Below, piece by piece: positions 14,391-26,562 of a stretch of 64,000 nt of DNA; the first letter of the stretch is position 1, and the number at the start of each line of letters is the position of its first letter. The stretch is taken from the NCBI GenBank assembly GCA_903822975.1, contig CAIJRD010000013.1, positions 1 through 64,000 on the forward strand. Reading direction: 5' to 3'. Both the position numbers and the translations under genes were made by a program. The notes under the pieces are model-generated. The model was not told the origin of the DNA, made no database searches, and was given only the letters and a program-made list of their open reading frames with translations. The stretch comes from an uncultured Sinobacteraceae bacterium. GTDB taxonomy: Bacteria; Pseudomonadota; Gammaproteobacteria; Nevskiales; Nevskiaceae.

Positions 14391-15704
14391 TCACATCTTG
14401 TTGATGCCGCAATCCTGATTGAAATCGCCAATTGCTGCAATCAAGCTACCTATGGCCTGCTGCTCAACTTTGTCGAGGTAGGGATTCCACACATCCGCAA
14501 TCAGAACCGAACGCACGTGTTCGCTCCGATTCCACGCAGCGTGTTCGAAGGTATCGTCGAAGATGACGACTTGGCCTTCCTTCCAGACGTGCATTTCTCC
14601 GCCTACGCTCAGGGCACAGTCTTCTGGAATGACCAATGGCAGATGCACGACAAGACGTGCGTTGGTAACGCCACGGTGCGGTTTGATTTCAGTTCCGGGC
14701 CGCAGCACTGAAAACAGGCTCTCCGGTGCGTGATCCCGGATTCGGGTCAAAGGGAGCGCATCCAGAGCGGCCAACGTTAATGGGCTCTGCGTTCCATGCG
14801 ATTCAAGCAGGATGCCGTGGCGATAGAAGAAATACGTATCCCAGGCTCGTGTTGGCGAGGTGCCTCCAAGGTAGTCGGGAATCCGGTCGGTTGCGATATC
14901 GTGGAATGGATCGAGTTTTTCACCCGATGCCAAGACCGCCGAAAGTTCTGCACGAATGTCCGCCGTTTTAAGTTCAAGCTCCGCGACCCAATCGAATTTC
15001 TGTGGATCGAAATACGGGTGTGTTGGTAGCTCTGGAATATAGAGAAACGACGGGCGCTGCCGATCATCCTGGTAGCTTGGTGCCACGTCCAACAGATACA
15101 TCGAAAGTGCGGCCTCGACCCTAGTAAGCGTGTCTCTCCCGTAAGTGGCTCGAAGTGGCTCGAGGCAGCGGGAGAATAGCTCGCGCCTTCCGGCGACGAC
15201 ATAAGCAGTCGCATGAGCAACCAGTTGGCGTTGCCATGGTGGCGTGGTCTGCAAGTCGCGCCACTGTCCTTTCAATTGCGCAGCGACCAAGGCGCCGAAA
15301 TAGTTGACCAAGGCGCCGTGGCTATTTCCCATCCTCGCCAGCGTGTCGCCCAGCAACAGACGAGCGATGTAGTGATCGGGCGCCAGCTTCAAGGCGTCGC
15401 GAAACTCGATCAAAGCCTCATCCAGCTGGTTGGCCTGCAAATGCACGAGGCCTCGGCTACGTCGCAAAACGCTATCTCCAGGCTTCAGCTGAATTGCCTG
15501 CTCCAACAGCTTCAGTGCATCGGACTTTTGTCCGCGCGCTAGCAACTGCATGGACAGAAAATTCGTTGCCTCCGTCTCGCCTGGAATTCGGTCGAGCACA
15601 GCGCGATAGATCCGTTCGGCTTGCGCGAAATCTCCTTTGTCGAGCAGCGCGCGCGCGCCTTCGAGTTGAGCGAGCGCCGCTTCGCCACCAATGCCCGGAC
15701 TCAC
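14391..15704 (-). CDS. TPR protein with C-terminal aspartyl/asparaginyl (AspH-type) beta-hydroxylase domain
   Basis: TPR-like repeats, then HRGVTNARLVVHLPLVIPEDCALSVGGEMHVWKEGQVVIFDDTFEHAAWNRSEHVRSVLIADVWNP, closely resembling the AspH catalytic core. Confidence 0.88.
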   Translation of the reverse strand: MSPGIGGEAALAQLEGARALLDKGDFAQAERIYRAVLDRIPGETEATNFLSMQLLARGQKSDALKLLEQAIQLKPGDSVLRRSRGLVHLQANQLDEALIEFRDALKLAPDHYIARLLLGDTLARMGNSHGALVNYFGALVAAQLKGQWRDLQTTPPWQRQLVAHATAYVVAGRRELFSRCLEPLRATYGRDTLTRVEAALSMYLLDVAPSYQDDRQRPSFLYIPELPTHPYFDPQKFDWVAELELKTADIRAELSAVLASGEKLDPFHDIATDRIPDYLGGTSPTRAWDTYFFYRHGILLESHGTQSPLTLAALDALPLTRIRDHAPESLFSVLRPGTEIKPHRGVTNARLVVHLPLVIPEDCALSVGGEMHVWKEGQVVIFDDTFEHAAWNRSEHVRSVLIADVWNPYLDKVEQQAIGSLIAAIGDFNQDCGINKM

Positions 15705-16306: not shown

Positions 16307-19252
16307 ATGAAATTGAGTGTCGAAGGACAACTTCGGCGGGCCGTGTGGGGGCTGTGCGCTGTTGGTTCAGTAGGCGCCGCGATCAGCTCACCAGCCGCTC
16401 TTGCGCAGCAAAGTGGTGATGCGACTCAGCTGAAGGGTGTTGAAGTTACCGGAAGCCGCATCCGTCGTGTGGATACGGAAACGTCCAATCTGGTGCAGAC
16501 ACTCGATCGCAAGCAGATCGAAGCAACCGGTGCGACGACGCTCGGAGAACTGATCCAAGCCATTCCTTCGGTTACTGGTGCGCCGCTGTCCGCAACGGCC
16601 AACAATAACGGCGGTTCGATCACCGGTGGTGGTGGCAGTTACGGTGGCGGTGGTTCGGTCGACATTCGTGGTTTGGGTCCCAAGCGCACGCTCTTGCTGC
16701 TCGACGGCCAGCGCTTGAACAACAACGATCCTGATGCCATTCCGGCCAACATGATCGAGCGCATCGAAGTGTTGAAAGAGGGTGCCGGTTCAACTTACGG
16801 CACCGACGCCATCGGCGGCGTCGTCAACTTCATTTCGCGCAAAAACTTCAGTGGTCTCGAGGCCGTGGGACAGTTCGGAAAGACCCAGCGCAACGACGGT
16901 CAGACGACCGGTGCGAGCATCACCTGGGGCTCGAGCGGCGCGAAGTACAAGGCCGTATTCGGCCTTAACTACAACGACCAGCGCGAGATTCGTGCAACGT
17001 CGCGCTACGCAACCGCGAATCCTGCGGGCCTCGCCTATGGCGCAATTACCAATGGCGCCTTCTCGTCGAGTCGGGCACCTGGCGGGCGATTTACCCTCCC
17101 CGGCACGTCGCCTACCGCAATTGCTTTGGATTGCAATGGAAAGCACGATGGCTCGGCCGCAAGCGTCACGCTGAAAGCCGGAGCAACCGGAACTTCTCCG
17201 TCTGACTACCGCTGCTTCGTCAACAACTTTGGAGCAGGCGGTGATCGCTTCAATTACCAGCCTTATAACCTCGATCTCGATCCGTCGCGCCGCGAGTCTC
17301 TGTTCGGCACCGGCTCGTACAAGTTCAACGACTCGGTCAGCTGGTACGGACAAGGTTTCTTCGCCCACACGCAATCGACCCGCAAGTTGGCGCCGGAACC
17401 CTTCGATATTTCGACAATTGCCGGTATCTTCCCGACACTTGGCGCGCCCGTCATTTCCAAGGACAACATTTACAACCCGTTCGGCGTAGACATCACGTCT
17501 TACGCAAAGCGGTCTGTGGATGCCGGCGCGCGAGAGCTCGATTACAACGTCGATCAGTGGCAGGCAACGACGGGTCTCAAAGGCGTGCTGTTCGATCGCT
17601 TCCAGTGGGATCTGGCTTACAACTATGGCCGTCTCGACCTGTCGAATCCGAACCGGGGCTACCTCGACTTTTCAAAAGTCTTCCAGCAGCTCGGCCCTTC
17701 GTTTATCGACGCCCAAGGCGTTGCGACCTGCGGCACCGTTGCCAACCCGATTCTGAATTGCACGCCGGTCAACATATTCGGGACGACCGGCAACACGCTC
17801 GCCGGACTCTCGACGGTCGTCAATGACGTCACGGTGCAGGATGAACAGGATTTCACGTTCAATGTGAGTGGTGACCTGTTCAATCTTCCGGCAGGAGCAG
17901 TTGGTGTAGCGGCAGGTGCTGAATACCGTTCGCTACATTTGGATTCGATTGCCGATGGATTGCAGCAGGAGTATCAGCTATCGGAGGCCAACTTCAAGGA
18001 GACCAGCGGCGGCTATAACGTTCGCGAGGCCTACGCTGAAGCCGAAATTCCGCTGGTCAAGGATCTGCCGGGCGTTAAGAGCTTCATGCTGAATGTCGGC
18101 GTGCGTTACTCGGACTTTTCGAGCTTCGGTAGCAATGTCGCGGGCAAGTATGCATTCGAGTACCGCCCGATCGATGATCTGATGTTGCGCGCGACCTATT
18201 CGGACACCTTCCGTGCGCCGACGACTGGCGAGCTTTTCGGTGGTGCTACGCAGTCGGCTCCCGCGTACACAGACCCCTGCCTCGATTCGAGCGGCGTGGC
18301 GACAGCAGGTACGATTGCCGGGCACAACAAGGCCTGTAACGGTGTGGCGATCGGTTCCACCCAGCCAAACACCCAGGGCAATGGAAACGCCATCGGCAAC
18401 CCCAATCTGAAACCGGAAAAGGGTTATTCCACAGACTTTGGCTTGGTCTTAAATCCTTCAATCTACAAACCGCTCACCATTACGCTGGACTACTATCATT
18501 ACACGTTGAAACAGGCGATCAGCAGCATCTCGCTTAATGAAGTATTGAATGCGTGCTACGCAAGCGATAGCTCTGCCTATTGCGGAACTGCGCCGGACGG
18601 TACGCCGTACTTTACTCGCGTCAACGACAGCAGCAACCCAGCTGCGCCGACGACTTCGATCGCCAACGCTACGCTGCCGTCGCTCAACAGCTTCTCCCTG
18701 TATCAGAATGGCTGGGATGGTGAGGTCAAGCTCGACTATCGCAATGTTCGAGTTGCAGGGAACGATATCGGCAACTTCGACTTCGGGGTCAACCTGACGT
18801 ACATCAATAAGTTCGAAGTCAAGGTATTCGATCCTGCGTCAGGAGAACTGGTTGACGACGCGTCGGTTGCGGGAACCTATGATTTCGCAGATACGGGAGT
18901 CGTTGCACCGCGCTTCAAGGGCTTGGGTTTCTTGTTCTGGTCGCTGGGTCCGGTCTCGGTGTCGGTTGAGGACCGGTACATCGGTAACCTCAAGATGAAT
19001 CACGACGACCTCTCAGCGCCTCCTTCGCCGACTGCTGGCGCACCGTACAACTCCGGTTATGCCAACTACGTCGATCTGGCCGGTACGTACACTGTGAAGC
19101 CGATTAATACCTCGTTCACCGTAGGTATCAACGATCTGTTTGACGATGGCATCCAAAGAACCTTCGACTCGACCAGCGCCGGCGCACCGAATCCGGTGTA
19201 CGACGTTCGCGGCCGGAATTTCTACGGCAAGGTGACTGTCCGCTTCAAGTAA
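16307..19252 (+). CDS. TonB-dependent outer-membrane receptor
   Basis: Signal peptide ending ALAQQ, plug domain VEVTGSRIRRVDTETSNLVQTLDRKQIEATGATTLGELIQAIPSVTG, ...DIRGLGPKRTLLLLDGQR, beta-barrel with terminal VRFK. Confidence 0.93.
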   Translation: MKLSVEGQLRRAVWGLCAVGSVGAAISSPAALAQQSGDATQLKGVEVTGSRIRRVDTETSNLVQTLDRKQIEATGATTLGELIQAIPSVTGAPLSATANNNGGSITGGGGSYGGGGSVDIRGLGPKRTLLLLDGQRLNNNDPDAIPANMIERIEVLKEGAGSTYGTDAIGGVVNFISRKNFSGLEAVGQFGKTQRNDGQTTGASITWGSSGAKYKAVFGLNYNDQREIRATSRYATANPAGLAYGAITNGAFSSSRAPGGRFTLPGTSPTAIALDCNGKHDGSAASVTLKAGATGTSPSDYRCFVNNFGAGGDRFNYQPYNLDLDPSRRESLFGTGSYKFNDSVSWYGQGFFAHTQSTRKLAPEPFDISTIAGIFPTLGAPVISKDNIYNPFGVDITSYAKRSVDAGARELDYNVDQWQATTGLKGVLFDRFQWDLAYNYGRLDLSNPNRGYLDFSKVFQQLGPSFIDAQGVATCGTVANPILNCTPVNIFGTTGNTLAGLSTVVNDVTVQDEQDFTFNVSGDLFNLPAGAVGVAAGAEYRSLHLDSIADGLQQEYQLSEANFKETSGGYNVREAYAEAEIPLVKDLPGVKSFMLNVGVRYSDFSSFGSNVAGKYAFEYRPIDDLMLRATYSDTFRAPTTGELFGGATQSAPAYTDPCLDSSGVATAGTIAGHNKACNGVAIGSTQPNTQGNGNAIGNPNLKPEKGYSTDFGLVLNPSIYKPLTITLDYYHYTLKQAISSISLNEVLNACYASDSSAYCGTAPDGTPYFTRVNDSSNPAAPTTSIANATLPSLNSFSLYQNGWDGEVKLDYRNVRVAGNDIGNFDFGVNLTYINKFEVKVFDPASGELVDDASVAGTYDFADTGVVAPRFKGLGFLFWSLGPVSVSVEDRYIGNLKMNHDDLSAPPSPTAGAPYNSGYANYVDLAGTYTVKPINTSFTVGINDLFDDGIQRTFDSTSAGAPNPVYDVRGRNFYGKVTVRFK

Positions 19253-19288: not shown

Positions 19289-19327
19289 GGGGCCTTCGTG
19301 CAAACTGCACGAAGGCCCCTTTTTTTT
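19289..19327 (+). terminator. Rho-independent terminator downstream of the TonB receptor
   Basis: GGGGCCTTCGTGC-aaact-GCACGAAGGCCCC followed by TTTTTTTT. Confidence 0.95.
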
Positions 19328-19346
19328 GATCAATGCGAGCAGATGT

Positions 19347-21200
19347 ATGGATGCGATTCCCGATGAGGGCCGTGCCCGCCAGCTTCTGTTGGCCGGTGAA
19401 TTTGACCTGCTCGCGCCTTTCGCAGCGCAGTTGATCAACAACGCTGATGGCGTTGACGAGGGCGTAGTCGAGTGCATCGCACTGGCCTGCGCATCAATGG
19501 GGGACCTCGAGAAAGCGGTTCCGTTGTTCGCTGAACTGATGCGACGCAGCCCCATGAGTGCTTCACATCAGATCAATCTCGCGGTACTGCGTTTGCGCAT
19601 GAGCGACTATCGCGCGGCGCGCGACCTGCTGGTGAGCGTGCGGCCACACACGCCGCACAATGCTGCTCTCGAATTCAATCTTGCCTTGGCGCATTTCGCG
19701 CTCGGCGAATTCTCCGAGGCGACTTCGATACTCTCGGACTATGTCCAAAATGTGCCGGACGATGCGGTCGCAGTGGTCTACCTGGCGCGCTGTTTGATCG
19801 AGCTCGGCGACATCGAATCTGCCGAGCTACTGATGCGTGATTGTTCATTTGACGCGGTGGTCGAAGCGCGCGACCGCTTTGAACTGAGCCAGGTGTATAT
19901 CGCAATCGGGGAGGCGGAACGGGCGCAGCCGATCCTCGAAGAGATTTTGTGCGATGACCACGGCGACGTTGCCGCGCGATTAAGTCTGGCTTCGTTGTTC
20001 GAGCGTTCAAATAAGATCGAGGACGCGCGCGCTCAGATCAATCAAATACCGATAGCCGAACGCGATCGACCGCAGTGGTATGTACTCGACGGCAAACTTG
20101 CGATGGCTGAGAGTCGACCCGCTGTGGCTCTGGCAAGCTTTGAACAAGCTTTGCGTCGAGCGGAGCGCGACGTAGGTTTTGCCGCCGAACGCGCACGCGC
20201 GGAAATCGAATTCGAGCGCGCGCATTGCCTCGACAAGTTGGCTCGGTTTGACGACGCGTTCGAGGGATTTGTCCGTGCCAATCACCTGCTGCGCGAATAC
20301 TTCCGTGTGCAACGTCGGGGAGCGCCGCAACGCGCAATTGCGGGAATCGAGGACTCGACAGAACTCGATGCTGCGGTAGAACGCGCGAGATATTCGAATC
20401 GCTTGGGTGAGTCCCCGATCTTCATTGTCGGATTCCCTCGTTCCGGCACCACCTTGCTTGATCAGCTGCTCGACGCGCATCCCGGATTGCAGGTCATGGA
20501 AGAAAGGCCGGCACTCGACGCGGTAGCCGCCGCCGTCGCCCTGGCAAGCCGACAGCATCTCGATGCGTTGATGACTGCAAACACTGAACAAATCGACAGC
20601 TGGCGCGCGCTTTATTGGCGAGAAGTCGAGCGCTACGTGCGCCGCGTGCCCGGTACGCGCCTGGTCGACAAGTACCCGCTGAATTTGGCGCGGGTCCAAC
20701 TGGCGATGTGCCTATTTCCAGATGCGCAATGGGTCTTCGCGCTACGCCATCCTTGCGACGTTGTACTGAGCTGCTTCATGCAGAGCTTCAGGCCGACCGA
20801 AGCGACTGATGGTTTTTGGTCGCTCGAGCAGACGGCCGGCGTTTACCGCGAAATGATTGCACGCTGGCTGACGCAACGTGAACGTCTGCGTCCGGACTGC
20901 ATTGATGTTCGTTATGAGGATCTGGTTGCGGACCTGCATGGAACTGCGCAGCGGCTGCTCACGTTTCTGCGACTCGAATGGAGTGATTCGGTGCTGCGAT
21001 TCAGCGAGCACGCCAAATCGCGGCGGATCAATACGCCGAGCTACAACCAAGTTGTTCAGCCGATCTACCGACGCGCCGTTGCACGCTGGCATAACTACCG
21101 CGCGTACTTCGGAACTGTCGAAAACATTCTGAAGCCGCTCATCGCGAGCCTGGGCTATGCAACTTCGTCGGAAAACAACGAAACCAGTTCTGGAAAATGA
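19347..21200 (+). CDS. TPR-containing sulfotransferase
   Basis: N-terminal TPR repeats; FIVGFPRSGTTLLDQLLDAHP (PAPS-binding 5'PSB-like) and ALRHPCDVVLSCFMQSF. The listed TTG start at 19326 lies in the terminator T-tract, so ATG 19347 is preferred. Confidence 0.87.
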   Translation: MDAIPDEGRARQLLLAGEFDLLAPFAAQLINNADGVDEGVVECIALACASMGDLEKAVPLFAELMRRSPMSASHQINLAVLRLRMSDYRAARDLLVSVRPHTPHNAALEFNLALAHFALGEFSEATSILSDYVQNVPDDAVAVVYLARCLIELGDIESAELLMRDCSFDAVVEARDRFELSQVYIAIGEAERAQPILEEILCDDHGDVAARLSLASLFERSNKIEDARAQINQIPIAERDRPQWYVLDGKLAMAESRPAVALASFEQALRRAERDVGFAAERARAEIEFERAHCLDKLARFDDAFEGFVRANHLLREYFRVQRRGAPQRAIAGIEDSTELDAAVERARYSNRLGESPIFIVGFPRSGTTLLDQLLDAHPGLQVMEERPALDAVAAAVALASRQHLDALMTANTEQIDSWRALYWREVERYVRRVPGTRLVDKYPLNLARVQLAMCLFPDAQWVFALRHPCDVVLSCFMQSFRPTEATDGFWSLEQTAGVYREMIARWLTQRERLRPDCIDVRYEDLVADLHGTAQRLLTFLRLEWSDSVLRFSEHAKSRRINTPSYNQVVQPIYRRAVARWHNYRAYFGTVENILKPLIASLGYATSSENNETSSGK

Positions 21201-22807
21201 TCGGCGTATCTGCGCCAGCGCCCGACCGATCTCGAATAGATCGCCTGTCGCGCCTGCCACGCGCTTGAAGTCGAAATGAAAGATGCGGGCGCCGTGACCG
21301 GCATCGATCGGGCGACCGTGGGCAAACCGAGGAATTCGTTCAGCTTGCCGAGGGTCTGCTCGGGGTTTGCAATCATCTCCTCGTAGCGGAGTTCGAAAAT
21401 CGGCAGATTCAAGCGTCGGCGCCAGTGGGCCATCAATTGGCTACAACCCTCGCTGAACGCCTGAATATCTGCGAACGCGTACGCATAGCCATTGTCGTTT
21501 CCACGCGCAAAATACTGTTGCCAGATCGACAGCGCCGTATCGCGAGCGTTGCGTCGACAGTAGATCACCCGTGCATTGGGGAACAGCTGCGCGATCAGGT
21601 CGAGGTGAAGAAAATTAAGCGGATTCTTATCGAGGTAGAAACTTGCAGGTGCATCGTCCTGACGCAGATGCGCAGCAGCGAACAATGACATGCGCGGAAT
21701 AAGTTGCGCACGCGCCGAAGCCGGTACCTCGGCAAGGCGCTTGCTGATGAATGGAATCAGATTCAGTTCGTCACGATTGCGCAGCTGCGGATGACGACTC
21801 AATCGATCGGCGATCAGCGTTGTACCGCTACGAGGAAGTCCAACGATGAATACCGGAACAAATGCGGCCGTTCCCTCGGATTCCGATTGGCGCGGCTGGA
21901 TCGGTTCTTGGAGTCGTTGCGAGACGTAGCTGCGCCAAGACTCCCGGCGCCATTCGATGCTCGCGCGAACCAGCGAATTGCCTTCGCGGAATGCGGCCGC
22001 GGCCACGTCGAAATCACCGATATCGTCATTCGCCTTGGCGAGCGCGAACAGTCCCGACGCGCGGGCGGACGGAGCCAGATTGGGCCGCGCTAGGAATTCG
22101 CGGAAACGCAAGAGGTCGGGGTGCGCGGCATTGGCATATCGCTGTGCAGCCGACAGAGCGTGAAGCAGGGAGGGCACCGCGTCGTCGTCGGCGCTCGACA
22201 AGGCCTGCAGGTAGTGATTTCTCGCGGCTGCAAAGTCACCGACGCTTGCTGCGAGGCGCCCCGCCAGTCCGTGTAGCGCCGAGTCTCGCTGGTGTTGCGT
22301 CAATGCAGCTTCGCAGAGCAAATAGCCCAATTGCGGTTGCTGGCATTGCTCGACAAAAGTGATTCGCGCCAATAGCAGCTGGGCGTCACCGGGATCGTGC
22401 TCAATCAGGGCGGCCATCATTCGCGATGCTTCGACCAGTCGCCCCTCCGCCTGCAAGAGCAGAGCAAGCGAATGCTGTGCGTTCGAATCTCCTGCTAGCG
22501 CCAGAGGCCCAAGCAGCGTCTCGGCGCGCTGCGGTTGTCCCAAACGCCGGAGCAGATCGCCGAGTGTGAATCGCAGCTCGGCAGCATCCGGCAACTCGAT
22601 CATGCGCGACTCAAGTAATGCGATCGCAGACTCGTGATCGCCGCCTTGCTCCAATGCCGCCGCGATCTGCAGGATTTGCGGTAGCGGTGCGATCGCGAGT
22701 TCACGCCTCAAGGTTCGCATTGCCCTGATGCGTCCGGAGGTCGCCAGGATCGACGCATGCTGAGCCAGCAGTCGCTGCAAATCCCGATCACGGCCGGATT
22801 CAATCAC
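21155..22807 (-). CDS. TPR-containing sulfotransferase
   Basis: VFIVGLPRSGTTLIADRLSRHPQLRNRDELNLI; VIYCRRNARDTALSIWQQYFA; TPR N-terminal part. Confidence 0.87.
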   Translation of the reverse strand: MIESGRDRDLQRLLAQHASILATSGRIRAMRTLRRELAIAPLPQILQIAAALEQGGDHESAIALLESRMIELPDAAELRFTLGDLLRRLGQPQRAETLLGPLALAGDSNAQHSLALLLQAEGRLVEASRMMAALIEHDPGDAQLLLARITFVEQCQQPQLGYLLCEAALTQHQRDSALHGLAGRLAASVGDFAAARNHYLQALSSADDDAVPSLLHALSAAQRYANAAHPDLLRFREFLARPNLAPSARASGLFALAKANDDIGDFDVAAAAFREGNSLVRASIEWRRESWRSYVSQRLQEPIQPRQSESEGTAAFVPVFIVGLPRSGTTLIADRLSRHPQLRNRDELNLIPFISKRLAEVPASARAQLIPRMSLFAAAHLRQDDAPASFYLDKNPLNFLHLDLIAQLFPNARVIYCRRNARDTALSIWQQYFARGNDNGYAYAFADIQAFSEGCSQLMAHWRRRLNLPIFELRYEEMIANPEQTLGKLNEFLGLPTVARSMPVTAPASFISTSSAWQARQAIYSRSVGRWRRYADHFPELVSLFSDEVA

Positions 22808-22961
22808 GGGGGCGATACGCCACGATGGAGCGGAAAGAGAAGGAAGTCATGATGACGGAAAATGCTAACACGCAGCGCGCCTGTTTCCGGGTGGCGCAGG
22901 TTTGGAGGCGTGTAGTCCAGCGGGCGCCCCACGCACGAGGCAGCTGCCACTATCATCGGCT

Positions 22962-24605
22962 ATGGACAGCGTAGATACGAAAACGGCGCAGCCCGCGCGG
23001 CTGATTGCAGACTTGATGGGTGATGCTGCGCGCATGGGTGAACCTGCCGCACTCGCCAAACTGCAACAACGATTGCAGGGTACCCCGTCGACGTTTTGGG
23101 TCGCGGTGGCCGAGGCCTTGCTGGGGCGGGAGCTCCCGGTTGCCGCAATTCACCTGATGGACGCCGCTCGGCGCGCGTTCCCAGACGACATGGAGGTGCT
23201 GTTTACGTTCGGCGCGGCCTTGCGTTTGGCCGGTGATGGAGCGACGGCGGAGCAGGTGCTCACGCACGTAATGTCGCGGATGCCGGAGCACGACCGGGCC
23301 TGCCTGACGTTGGCGCTATTGCACCGGGATCGTGGTCAGAACAGTGCGGCCGCGCAGCTGCTCCGCGACTTGCATAAACGGCGGGGCGGGGCGGATCTGA
23401 CCCTGTATGTCGTCGACCTGCTGCGCAAATGCAGACGCGAACGCGATGCGATGGCGATTTGCGAGGCGGAACTGCAGCGCGCGCCGGAACACGCGCGACT
23501 GCAGTTCGTCGCGGGCGGGCTCGCGCTGACGCTCGGTCGATTTGAAGATGCGCGGCGCTGGTTGCTGGCGGCATTGGACCGCAGTGAACCCGAATGGGGG
23601 GCGCTGATGCCGTTGGCACTGACTCGTAAGTATCTCGATCAATCCGATCCTGATCTGACTCGCTTTCGCCAAGCAGCAGCGTCGCCGGCGCTGTCACCTG
23701 AGTTGCGCAGTGCGGCCGGGTTCGCGCTGGGCAAGGCGCTCGACGATCTGGGTGATTTTGCGGGTGCTGCTTCCGCCTTGACTGAAGCCAACCGACACCA
23801 GCACTCGCTCGCGAACTGGTCGGCGTCAAATTGGGATGCGTTCATCGCGCGGCAGATCGAATCGCCGCCACCGCTATTTCTTGATGAAGCAGTGGACAAC
23901 GCCATCGTGCCGATTTTTGTCGTCGGCCTACCCCGCAGCGGCACAACCTTGGTCGCTGAATTGCTTGCGCGCCACCCGGAAGCTGTGAGCCGTGGCGAAT
24001 TGCCGTGGCTTAGCTTCGTCGTGAATAGCCTTATGTCATCGCCTGCGCCGGACGTTACGGCGATGCGTCGCGCTGCCGCGCTTTACCTGGCACAGCTGCG
24101 TCAAGACGACCCGGCTGTTCGCTGGTACGTCGACAAGAATCCGATGAATTTTCGCTTCCTGGGCTGGATCATTGCGCTATTTCCGAACGCGCGAATCCTG
24201 GTGTGCGATCGCGATCGGCGCGACACCGCCCTATCGATCTGGAGCCAGGCCTTCGACTCCGTCGAACTGGGTTTCGCGTACGACTTTGCCGATATCGAGC
24301 GATGCATTGCAGGACACGATGTGCTGTTGAAGCACTGGTTGCCGCGCTTGGGTGCCTCGGTATACCGGGTCGACTATGAACGCCTTGCGCGTTCACCGCA
24401 GAACGTCGTGGCCGAGATTCAGACCTTCATTGGGATGCCGCCCAGCAATCTGCTTGACGCAACGGGGGCAAGCAAGACGACTGTGAACACGGCGAGCGTC
24501 TGGCAGGTTCGTCAGCCGATCTACAGTAGCTCCATTGGGCGTGCGGAGGTTTACTCGGCGTTGCTTCCAGAACTTTTGCGATTTCCCTCGAGGCCACGAA
24601 CGTGA
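22962..24605 (+). CDS. TPR-containing sulfotransferase
   Basis: IFVVGLPRSGTTLVAELLARHPEAVSRGELPWLSF; ILVCDRDRRDTALSIWSQAFD; ATG 22962 (MDSVDTKTAQPARL) chosen within the listed ORF. Confidence 0.86.
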   Translation: MDSVDTKTAQPARLIADLMGDAARMGEPAALAKLQQRLQGTPSTFWVAVAEALLGRELPVAAIHLMDAARRAFPDDMEVLFTFGAALRLAGDGATAEQVLTHVMSRMPEHDRACLTLALLHRDRGQNSAAAQLLRDLHKRRGGADLTLYVVDLLRKCRRERDAMAICEAELQRAPEHARLQFVAGGLALTLGRFEDARRWLLAALDRSEPEWGALMPLALTRKYLDQSDPDLTRFRQAAASPALSPELRSAAGFALGKALDDLGDFAGAASALTEANRHQHSLANWSASNWDAFIARQIESPPPLFLDEAVDNAIVPIFVVGLPRSGTTLVAELLARHPEAVSRGELPWLSFVVNSLMSSPAPDVTAMRRAAALYLAQLRQDDPAVRWYVDKNPMNFRFLGWIIALFPNARILVCDRDRRDTALSIWSQAFDSVELGFAYDFADIERCIAGHDVLLKHWLPRLGASVYRVDYERLARSPQNVVAEIQTFIGMPPSNLLDATGASKTTVNTASVWQVRQPIYSSSIGRAEVYSALLPELLRFPSRPRT

Positions 24606-24660: not shown

Positions 24661-26562
24661 ATGAAACTTCCTGCTCCGTTTTTTCGATTGCCATTGGTGG
24701 TTGATGTCGCGCGCTTGCAAGCGGAACTCGAGCTGTACTCAGCCGAGGATTGGCAGCGGCATCCAACCGGATTTGCAGGCAACAGCGCCGTACGGCTGAT
24801 TAGCGTCAATGGTGGACCGACGGATGATTTCGTCGGCTCGATGGCCCCGACGCCTCAGCTTCAGCGTGCGCCTTACATCCGACAAATCCTCGCATCGTTT
24901 GGAGTTGTCTGGAGTCGTTCACGATTGATGCGCCTTGCTGCTGGCGCGAGCGTACCGGAACACTGCGATCTCAACTATCACTGGTTCAATCGAGTCCGCG
25001 TTCACATTCCCGTTCGCACCGACCCTGCCGTGTCCTTTACCTGTGACGGGCAAACGGTTCACATGGCGGCCGGAGAAGTGTGGCTATTCGACAATTGGCG
25101 CTTGCACCATGTCCATAACGGTAGTGCGTTCGATCGGGTTCACCTCGTGGCCGACACGATGGGCAGCGCCGCATTCTGGAACCTGCTTGCCGATAGCGAT
25201 ACGAAGGATTTCGCTCGGCGCCGTGTCTCACCACAGGAAATCGCGTTCCAGCCCGGTACCGATGCGAAAATATGGTGCGAACGCTACAATAACAGCAGCA
25301 CCATGCATCCTGCTGAGCTCGACCTATTGACCGGTGATCTGCTCAATGATCTGCGCGATCTTCCGGATGTAAGGGGACGACAGGCGCTACACGCGTTCGC
25401 TGGCTTCGTCGTGCATATGTGTCGTGAGTGGCGCATGTTGTGGTCGTTGTTTGGAGACTCCGCAGAGGGCTGGCCACATTTTCGCAATTTGCGGGACTGG
25501 GCGATCGATCAAAACAATCAGCAATCGGCGGCGGTCGTCTGCGCCAGTAACGGAATGAGTGCCAGTGAGGTTCTGTACTCGCGCGTGCTCGCTTATTGCT
25601 GGTGTGCGCCTACGCACGCCGAGGTGCTGCAAGATGTTGACCGCACGCTCAGTTCGGGAGGCATGACCGCTGATGTCGGCAATGCCTCGCATGTCGCGAG
25701 TTCGATCGCGACGTTCGAGCGCCCCGTGTTTATCGTGGCGGCGCCGAGGTCCGGGAGCACTTTGTTGTTCGAAACACTGGCGCAAGCGCCAGATCTATGG
25801 ACGGTGGGCGGTGAGTCCCACTGGCTGGTCGAAACGCTCCCGCAGTTGCTGCCATGGGCAGATGGGGTCGGCTCCAATCGCTTGACGGCCGCGCACGTCG
25901 ATGAAGCGGTGCGTGAGCATGTGCGGGGATTGCTTGCCGAAAACCTGCGAGATCGGGATGGCCTGCCGTATCGCAGCGGTTCGGTTCGCATACTCGAGAA
26001 GACGCCGAAGCATGCGCTGCGAATTCCGTTCTTCAGCACGCTTTTTCCAGACGCACGGTTCATCTTCTTATGGCGCGAGCCGCAGCCAAATTTGGCGAGC
26101 ATGATCGAGGCCTGGCTGTCGCAGGGATGGATCACCTACCCACAGCTACCCGGGCGGGGGACGCCGTGGTCGCTCCTGCTGCCGCCGGGCTGGGAAGCGA
26201 TGCATGACAAGAGCGTCGCAGAAACGGTCGCGTTCCAGTGGCGGACGACCAACGAACTGGTTCTCGATGATCTCGCAGCGCTGCCCGATGAACGTTGGAC
26301 GATGCTGCGGTACGAGGACTTCGTCGCGGATCCTGCGGGCACGGTGCGACGACTCTGTCGCTTTGCGGATTTCGGGTTTGATCAGCAGCTGGCCGATCGC
26401 GTCAATGCGCCCTTGCCACTCTCGGTGCATACGCTGGACAAGCCGGCCCCGATGAAGTGGAAGAAGCACGAGCGCACGATTCTCGATTTGCAGTCCCAGT
26501 GGCAGTCCACGCGTGATCGTCTGCACCAGGCGAACCTGCGCAAACAGCAACAGAATCGCTGA
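24661..26562 (+). CDS. Two-domain protein: N-terminal aspartyl/asparaginyl hydroxylase-like (2OG/Fe) domain, C-terminal sulfotransferase
   Basis: N-term VWSRSRLMRLAAGASVPEHCDLNYHWFNRVRVHIPVRTDPAVSFTCDGQTVHMAAGEVWLFDNWRLHHVHN; C-term FIVAAPRSGSTLLFETLAQAP...GESHWLVETLPQL...FIFLWREPQPNLASMIEAW; ATG 24661 chosen within ORF 24535-26562. Confidence 0.78.
   Translation: MKLPAPFFRLPLVVDVARLQAELELYSAEDWQRHPTGFAGNSAVRLISVNGGPTDDFVGSMAPTPQLQRAPYIRQILASFGVVWSRSRLMRLAAGASVPEHCDLNYHWFNRVRVHIPVRTDPAVSFTCDGQTVHMAAGEVWLFDNWRLHHVHNGSAFDRVHLVADTMGSAAFWNLLADSDTKDFARRRVSPQEIAFQPGTDAKIWCERYNNSSTMHPAELDLLTGDLLNDLRDLPDVRGRQALHAFAGFVVHMCREWRMLWSLFGDSAEGWPHFRNLRDWAIDQNNQQSAAVVCASNGMSASEVLYSRVLAYCWCAPTHAEVLQDVDRTLSSGGMTADVGNASHVASSIATFERPVFIVAAPRSGSTLLFETLAQAPDLWTVGGESHWLVETLPQLLPWADGVGSNRLTAAHVDEAVREHVRGLLAENLRDRDGLPYRSGSVRILEKTPKHALRIPFFSTLFPDARFIFLWREPQPNLASMIEAWLSQGWITYPQLPGRGTPWSLLLPPGWEAMHDKSVAETVAFQWRTTNELVLDDLAALPDERWTMLRYEDFVADPAGTVRRLCRFADFGFDQQLADRVNAPLPLSVHTLDKPAPMKWKKHERTILDLQSQWQSTRDRLHQANLRKQQQNR

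Follow-up and report, generated by a model that had tools for sequence, protein, structure and literature searches.

Human AspH and the PF05118 proline hydroxylases of solved structure (4p7w and 1e5r) are described systems close to the oxygenase presented here: they have the same double-stranded beta-helix (Z 15-16) and match it by sequence profile. Human AspH lacks the Asp of the HxD...H motif. The protein of our window differs from it in having HxD...H and in being fused to a sulfotransferase. For this second half, the tyrosylprotein sulfotransferases TPST1 and TPST2 share with the fusion the PAPS loop, a lysine at the position of the NKDP Lys (K447 in the fusion) and the R-x(7)-S PAPS motif, but only part of the fusion domain aligns with them, the alignment of the catalytic Glu is ambiguous by one residue, and the fusion is bacterial and apparently cytosolic. 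One of the neighbouring TPR-bearing sulfotransferases (TPR-sulfotransferase 1) is nearer to TPST than the fusion is. CurM and the olefin-synthase sulfotransferases are domains of polyketide synthases, but no polyketide genes were seen at the fusion. RaxST of Xanthomonas, likened here by description, is a bacterial tyrosine sulfotransferase that acts on an exported polypeptide; its substrate is the small peptide RaxX. We know of no RaxST fused to an oxygenase.

Lasso-peptide tailoring offers a further likeness, in that 2OG hydroxylases modify encoded peptides: the Asp beta-hydroxylase CanE is one such enzyme, and a sulfotransferase gene has been noted in clusters (PMC8498205, in part). Excerpts of another report (PMC10040529) describe near-consecutive gene clusters of a lasso B2 protein, a sulfotransferase, an Asp beta-hydroxylase, PqqD and an Asn synthase. 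Two of our loci (L058 and L025) carry lasso-like AsnS, PqqD and HprK genes, but the portion of PMC8498205 consulted mentions no fusion enzyme, and a search of the window for lasso genes of the AsnS, PqqD and HprK types found none. Our literature search found no description of the fusion or of a cassette combining a TonB-dependent receptor (TBDR), sulfotransferases and hydroxylases.

The fused reading frame and its conserved residues

The window is the whole stretch of 64,000 nucleotides of an uncultured Sinobacteraceae bacterium that was analysed. In it, one reading frame stays open from the ATG at 24661 to a stop codon ending at 26562. Its features are as follows.

24661..26562, + strand: fused 2OG-Fe(II) hydroxylase (PF05118) and sulfotransferase (PF13469), 633 aa (ORF, Pfam and alignment)
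24661..25260, + strand: hydroxylase core, residues 1-200, predicted double-stranded beta-helix (Pfam, AF2 model, PDB fold matches)
24961-24963, + strand: H101, predicted iron ligand, invariant in 30/30 fusions
24967-24969, + strand: D103, predicted iron ligand, invariant in 30/30 fusions
25105-25107, + strand: H149, predicted iron ligand, invariant in 30/30 fusions
25135-25137, + strand: R159, putative 2OG binding by family analogy, invariant in 30/30 fusions
25261..25605, + strand: C-terminal extension of the hydroxylase, residues ~201-315 (helices predicted with low confidence)
25606..25716, + strand: variable hinge, residues ~316-352 (alignment of fusions)
25717..26460, + strand: sulfotransferase domain, residues 353-600 (Pfam, alignment, solved-structure comparison)
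25744-25758, + strand: PAPS loop PRSGS, residues 362-366, in 30/30 fusions
25813-25815, + strand: E385, invariant in 30/30 fusions
25999-26001, + strand: K447, invariant in 30/30 fusions
26074-26076, + strand: R472, putative 3' PAPS binding by TPST analogy, invariant in 30/30 fusions
26098-26100, + strand: S480, putative 3' PAPS binding by TPST analogy, invariant in 30/30 fusions

Pfam profiles bear out both domain identities of the original prediction, a 2OG hydroxylase followed by a sulfotransferase. PF05118 (Asp_Arg_Hydrox) matched residues 64-166 (E 1.3e-14, 54.8 bits against a cut-off of 22.6) and PF13469 (Sulfotransfer_3) matched residues 355-574 (E 1.4e-26, 94.5 bits against a cut-off of 27); PF00685 also matched the protein (5e-9). 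The motifs picked out by eye are all present, with HCD at residues 101-103, HHVHN at 149-153, RVHLVAD at 159-165 and APRSGSTLL at 361-369. The two-domain layout stood as well, although its edges were slightly off, since the sulfotransferase begins near residue 353 and a hinge occupies residues ~316-352. Residues ~200-315 were assigned to the hydroxylase half because they are kept in stand-alone hydroxylases (~315 aa).

The oxygenase half had been expected to adopt a double-stranded beta-helix, and this is the fold predicted by AlphaFold and superposition. Residues 1-345 were modelled with AF2 from the window protein, a homologue from a Nevskia sp. MAG (64% identity to the window protein, full length) and 15 relatives from viral contigs. 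The core (to residue ~190) was predicted with pLDDT mostly between 80 and 96, and the helices beyond residue ~200 with low confidence; a model of the full-length fusion from two sequences (pLDDT 31) was set aside. Using VIA-align, the core superposed on L-proline cis-4-hydroxylase (4p7x/4p7w, Z 15.7/15.6), and it also superposed on proline 3-hydroxylase (1e5r, Z 15.5) and human AspH (5jqy, Z 15.3). L-proline cis-4-hydroxylase is also the nearest solved structure to this half by sequence. H101, D103, H149 and R159 are likewise invariant in the 17-row alignment that includes the 15 viral-contig relatives; within HHVHN the invariant His is the first (H149), and H150 and H152 vary. Superposition and alignment together indicate that the iron ligands would be clustered in space, and family analogy suggests R159 as a 2OG ligand.

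Among solved structures, the sulfotransferase half is by sequence most closely related to the CurM/olefin-synthase sulfotransferases (4gbm and 4gox, E 4e-19); tyrosylprotein sulfotransferases are also near, and it is by analogy to them that we assume the roles of its residues. In the alignment, K447 pairs with the Lys of the NKDP segment of TPST, and E385 lies at the GEE segment, where one position is ambiguous; by this analogy the two may be the catalytic residues. T591, K599 and W600 are also invariant in the 30 fused proteins, and the TPST Ser region (possibly T591) falls outside the aligned part. Judged by its sequence, the fusion is catalytically intact. Loci with more distant relatives of this domain (L063-L067, 35-37% identity) have neighbouring genes that by eye resemble those of glycan biosynthesis, and the acceptor of the domain is therefore not readable from homology.

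Distribution of the fusion

A search for the same architecture elsewhere, as the original prediction had proposed, recovered it from further genomes and from plasmids, and the fusion is present in alpha-, beta- and gammaproteobacteria. Six of the 58 genomes of the window's family contain full-length fusions, one of these genomes carrying two. No further fusion came from the search of 85 genomes of the order, five more came from a sample of 369 genomes of the class (one of them as two pieces of one frame) and two more from a sample of 398 genomes of the phylum (G464 and G735). The 249 genomes of the family of G464 hold 19 intact fusions, these two among them; in the same family, one version is split (G905) and another matches in two pieces of one frame (G849). 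Since the genome searches scored few candidates per genome, all of these counts are lower bounds. The plasmid homologues belong to Asticcacaulis sp. DW145 (44.5% identity) and Diaphorobacter sp. HDW4B (40.9%), and because both are annotated just 'sulfotransferase' their oxygenase half is hidden. With 30 fused proteins in 27 genomes (the window's included) and two plasmids, the fusion is genuine and not a sequencing accident.

Spread of the fusion by viruses was considered and rejected: searching viral contigs with the window protein yielded no fusion, and alignment searches of these contigs yielded relatives of the oxygenase domain only, the sulfotransferase alignment matching none. The relatives (L160-L178 and L193-L195) are PF05118-type oxygenases with intact iron ligands, many of them of ~380 aa with an extra N-terminal domain, and the reading frame of L178 runs on into a stretch that by eye resembles a DNA methyltransferase. 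Separately, a plasmid protein of Azospirillum lipoferum annotated as an EamA transporter (L126, 8001-9782) has an N-terminal stretch related to the window hydroxylase domain and sits within a flagellar gene cluster.

Gene neighbourhoods

The fusion gene of the window lies downstream of a receptor gene and several genes for modifying enzymes, a setting that did not figure in the original prediction.

14391..15704, - strand: TPR and Asp_Arg_Hydrox protein (TPR-AspH), divergent; closest solved relative human AspH, E 1.6e-26
16307..19252, + strand: TBDR, 981 aa, candidate substrate, with an N-terminal signal-peptide-like stretch
19289..19319, + strand: terminator-like hairpin of 14 pairs with T8, in the gap between receptor and first enzyme (terminator scan)
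19326..21200, + strand: TPR-sulfotransferase 1; its match to TPST1/2 (E 1e-13 to 1e-17) spans the entire catalytic domain
21155..22807, - strand: TPR-sulfotransferase 2, opposite strand (Pfam)
22902..24605, + strand: TPR-sulfotransferase 3, separated from the fusion gene downstream by 55 bp (Pfam)

A gene for a DUF1302 protein comes after the fusion. The strong hairpin is possibly an attenuator, possibly tuning the level of the enzymes against that of the receptor; terminator-like sites in the region number 9 against 11.7 expected. The window genome has only 15 TBDRs in 4.46 Mb, and none of the other 14 has an AspH or a sulfotransferase of the cassette families beside it (~8 kb flanks). On contig C11 of this genome (L028, 9645-10863), a pair of ST2 and AspH genes resembles the Asticcacaulis cassette, with no TBDR within the 20 kb read.

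In its general form, the cassette consists of a TBDR, one to three TPST-like TPR-sulfotransferases and further 2OG hydroxylases (one matching human AspH), followed by the fusion. We define it by a TBDR and a TPR-sulfotransferase beside the fusion, as found in the window. Beyond the window, the comparison covered 29 fused loci and 11 loci with an unfused hydroxylase, some of the 10-kb flanks being shorter because contigs end. A TBDR lies within 10 kb in 14 of the 29 and 7 of the 11, and a TPR-sulfotransferase in 17 of the 29 and 6 of the 11. Four loci (L109, L110, L111 and L123) share the order TBDR, ST2, small AspH, TPR-sulfotransferase and fusion; their enzyme genes are separated by 4-bp overlaps or 3-bp gaps, leaving no space there for a precursor peptide. 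The same tight packing is seen in L102 and L119 with the hydroxylase alone at the end, and L118 and L121 are similar. The name 'Caulobacteraceae-type' cassette takes its family from the Asticcacaulis record.

Cassette receptors (23 of the 41 rows) are spread across several TBDR clades, with five label changes, five of them forced by well-supported branches, and the association has therefore formed repeatedly. A loop resembling FNYxPYN...ER, present in 7 of the 23 cassette receptors and in none of the 18 others, was considered as a common substrate site and dropped because it is confined to one TBDR clade. No sequence motif common to all cassette receptors was found.

Other loci have different neighbours. 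Seven fused loci, all of one genus (L100, L101 and L103-L107, genus g374), are orphans with no TBDR, TPR-sulfotransferase or recognised partner within 10 kb, and the same holds for L057, L114 and L117, the last with a short flank on one side. Two loci of one genus (L055 and L056) have a TPR-sulfotransferase next to the fusion and no TBDR, and L055 also has a right-handed beta-helix protein. In L124, which has no TBDR, the fusion is flanked by genes for an IPTL-CTERM protein bearing repeats of the PMP type and for a TIGR03032/DUF4915 protein. L058 (3871-12956), again with no TBDR, has the fusion inside a lasso-peptide-like cluster: its Asn-synthase-type cyclase matches a lasso cyclase model at E 5e-60 yet scores under the cut-off, its lasso-type PqqD chaperone reaches 75.3 bits against a cut-off of 80, and an HprK-like kinase and a second sulfotransferase (Sulfotransfer_1) are also present. 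The label 'lasso' is provisional here, as L058 showed no identifiable lasso B2 protease. Relatives of this set (AsnS, PqqD-like, HprK-like and Sulfotransfer_1) accompany a split hydroxylase/sulfotransferase pair in L025 (5796-17777). By eye, a 51-aa reading frame of L058 (9559-9714, - strand) resembles a lasso precursor, and both loci carry a related protein that appears tail-collar-like. Genes of an oligopeptide ABC importer (OppA and OppB, with C and D in several cases) also lie less than 10 kb from the fusion or the hydroxylase in L019, L020, L021, L023 and L024.

Substrate and coupling of the two reactions

Our preferred reading, to which we give a little less than an even chance, is that the fusion is a cytosolic bifunctional modifier that hydroxylates and O-sulfates the same polypeptide, and that its likeliest target in the window lineage is the co-encoded TBDR before export. 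The enzyme activity, polypeptide substrate, receptor target and step order that we infer would be the following. The N-terminal Fe(II)/2OG domain would hydroxylate a side chain, with chemistry like that of proline or Asp/Asn hydroxylases. The PAPS-dependent domain at the C-terminus would O-sulfate this polypeptide as well, quite possibly on the hydroxyl just made, or at a nearby residue. The TPST-like TPR-sulfotransferases and TPR-AspH would add further marks to the receptor, whose unfolded chain could be held by the TPR domains of these partner enzymes, and the modified receptor would then be secreted and folded. PAPS and 2OG are cytosolic. We place the reactions before export because of these cosubstrates and because the enzymes have no obvious signal peptides and the receptor has a candidate one by eye.

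That the substrate is a polypeptide is probable. The cassette neighbours are, as far as homology indicates, related to protein-modifying enzymes, which counts for a polypeptide, and the neighbours other than TBDRs (the beta-helix protein, the IPTL-CTERM/PMP-repeat protein and the lasso-like RiPP) are encoded polypeptides, which points the same way. The TBDR in particular as the substrate is a more tentative proposal, with chances slightly short of even. The recurrence of TBDRs and TPR-sulfotransferases near the fusion, the repeated association with receptors of several clades and the tightly packed loci count for our preferred reading; the orphan loci, the lack of a motif shared by the cassette receptors, the glycan-type neighbours of the distant sulfotransferase relatives and the likeness to free-proline hydroxylases count against it.

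The original prediction took the fusion to suggest coupled hydroxylation and sulfation; its domains stand, and the coupling is a possible further step. On the hydroxylase tree, the fused and unfused states need eight changes, six of them forced by well-supported branches, so that loss, splitting or regain of the sulfotransferase has occurred more than once. All five free-standing close sulfotransferases that were read have a neighbouring 2OG-oxygenase gene (L025, L108, L120, L122 and L125). L025 and L108 are adjacent split versions of the hydroxylase and the sulfotransferase, and in L120 (7787-10450) and L122 (9225-11804) a TPR-sulfotransferase is fused to a close relative of the window sulfotransferase domain; next to this fusion, the opposite strand carries a small AspH gene, and a TBDR is close by. 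Nine of the 11 unfused hydroxylases (one of them, L060, at a contig end) lack a nearby close copy of the window sulfotransferase, although most of these loci do hold other cassette sulfotransferases. A sulfotransferase always found with an oxygenase and a hydroxylase often found alone therefore suit the order 'hydroxylate first, sulfate second', in a sample (5/5 against 9/11) that is small and not independent. Remnants of lost sulfotransferases beside the unfused hydroxylases were also sought and rejected: with L025 and L108, the split loci, set aside, the weak tblastn matches (22-28% identity) fell in L118, L121, L119, L102, L061 and L062, all of which have a TPR-sulfotransferase at the match, and tblastn found none in L024, L060 and L126.

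A relay in which one residue is hydroxylated and then sulfated is plausible, if somewhat doubtful. The nine unfused loci and the repeated interchange of fused and unfused states are evidence against obligatory coupling. It is rather unlikely that the two halves make independent modifications on different residues of one target and are fused for co-expression or shared docking only. Such independence would agree with the nine unfused loci, with cassettes that end in the hydroxylase alone (L102, L118, L119 and L121) versus the fusion (L109-L111 and L123), with the sulfotransferase domain being joined to a TPR-sulfotransferase instead in L120 and L122, and with tyrosine, the usual TPST target, requiring no previous hydroxylation; however, the five free-standing sulfotransferases beside a 2OG-oxygenase gene are as expected if sulfation needs hydroxylation first. 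We also consider it unlikely that the enzyme hydroxylates and sulfates a small molecule (an amino acid, a siderophore-like compound or an imported peptide) transported by the TBDR and, in some loci, by Opp. The oxygenase core has close relatives among the 4- and 3-hydroxylases of free L-proline, TBDRs are importers, and 4 of the 29 fused loci have OppA/OppB homologues within 10 kb. Against this, the Opp genes were seen only in loci of the window's family, no scaffold-making genes recur (by eye, the listed neighbours include no NRPS or PKS), and several neighbours carry TPRs and are related to protein-modifying enzymes. Sulfation of a hydroxylated lipid or sugar of the surface is very improbable: PF05118 includes lipid hydroxylases such as LpxO and the distant sulfotransferase relatives lie among glycan-biosynthesis-like genes, but the NCBIfam LpxO model scored 16.7 bits, far under its cut-off of 500, and no glycosyltransferase or lipid gene recurs beside the fusion in the loci read.

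A more far-reaching version of our preferred reading is a dedicated cytosolic pathway by which proteobacteria hydroxylate and then sulfate their own TBDRs and, elsewhere, beta-helix surface proteins and lasso-like peptides, the fusion carrying out both steps on one residue. In this full form it is unlikely; we know of no sulfated hydroxy-amino acid in any protein. The fusion is built from known enzyme families, and the novelty would lie in a pathway that hydroxylates and sulfates the outer-membrane receptors of bacteria. That the fusion is often placed among modifying enzymes beside a receptor suggests an undescribed route of surface-protein decoration, and the recurring cassette points to a concrete candidate substrate, the neighbouring receptor. 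If this is true, the pathway would parallel in bacteria the way in which AspH and TPST decorate the secreted proteins of animals. Its marks could easily escape standard proteomics searches, and sulfation and hydroxylation of the receptors would alter the surface recognition of nutrients, phages and toxins.
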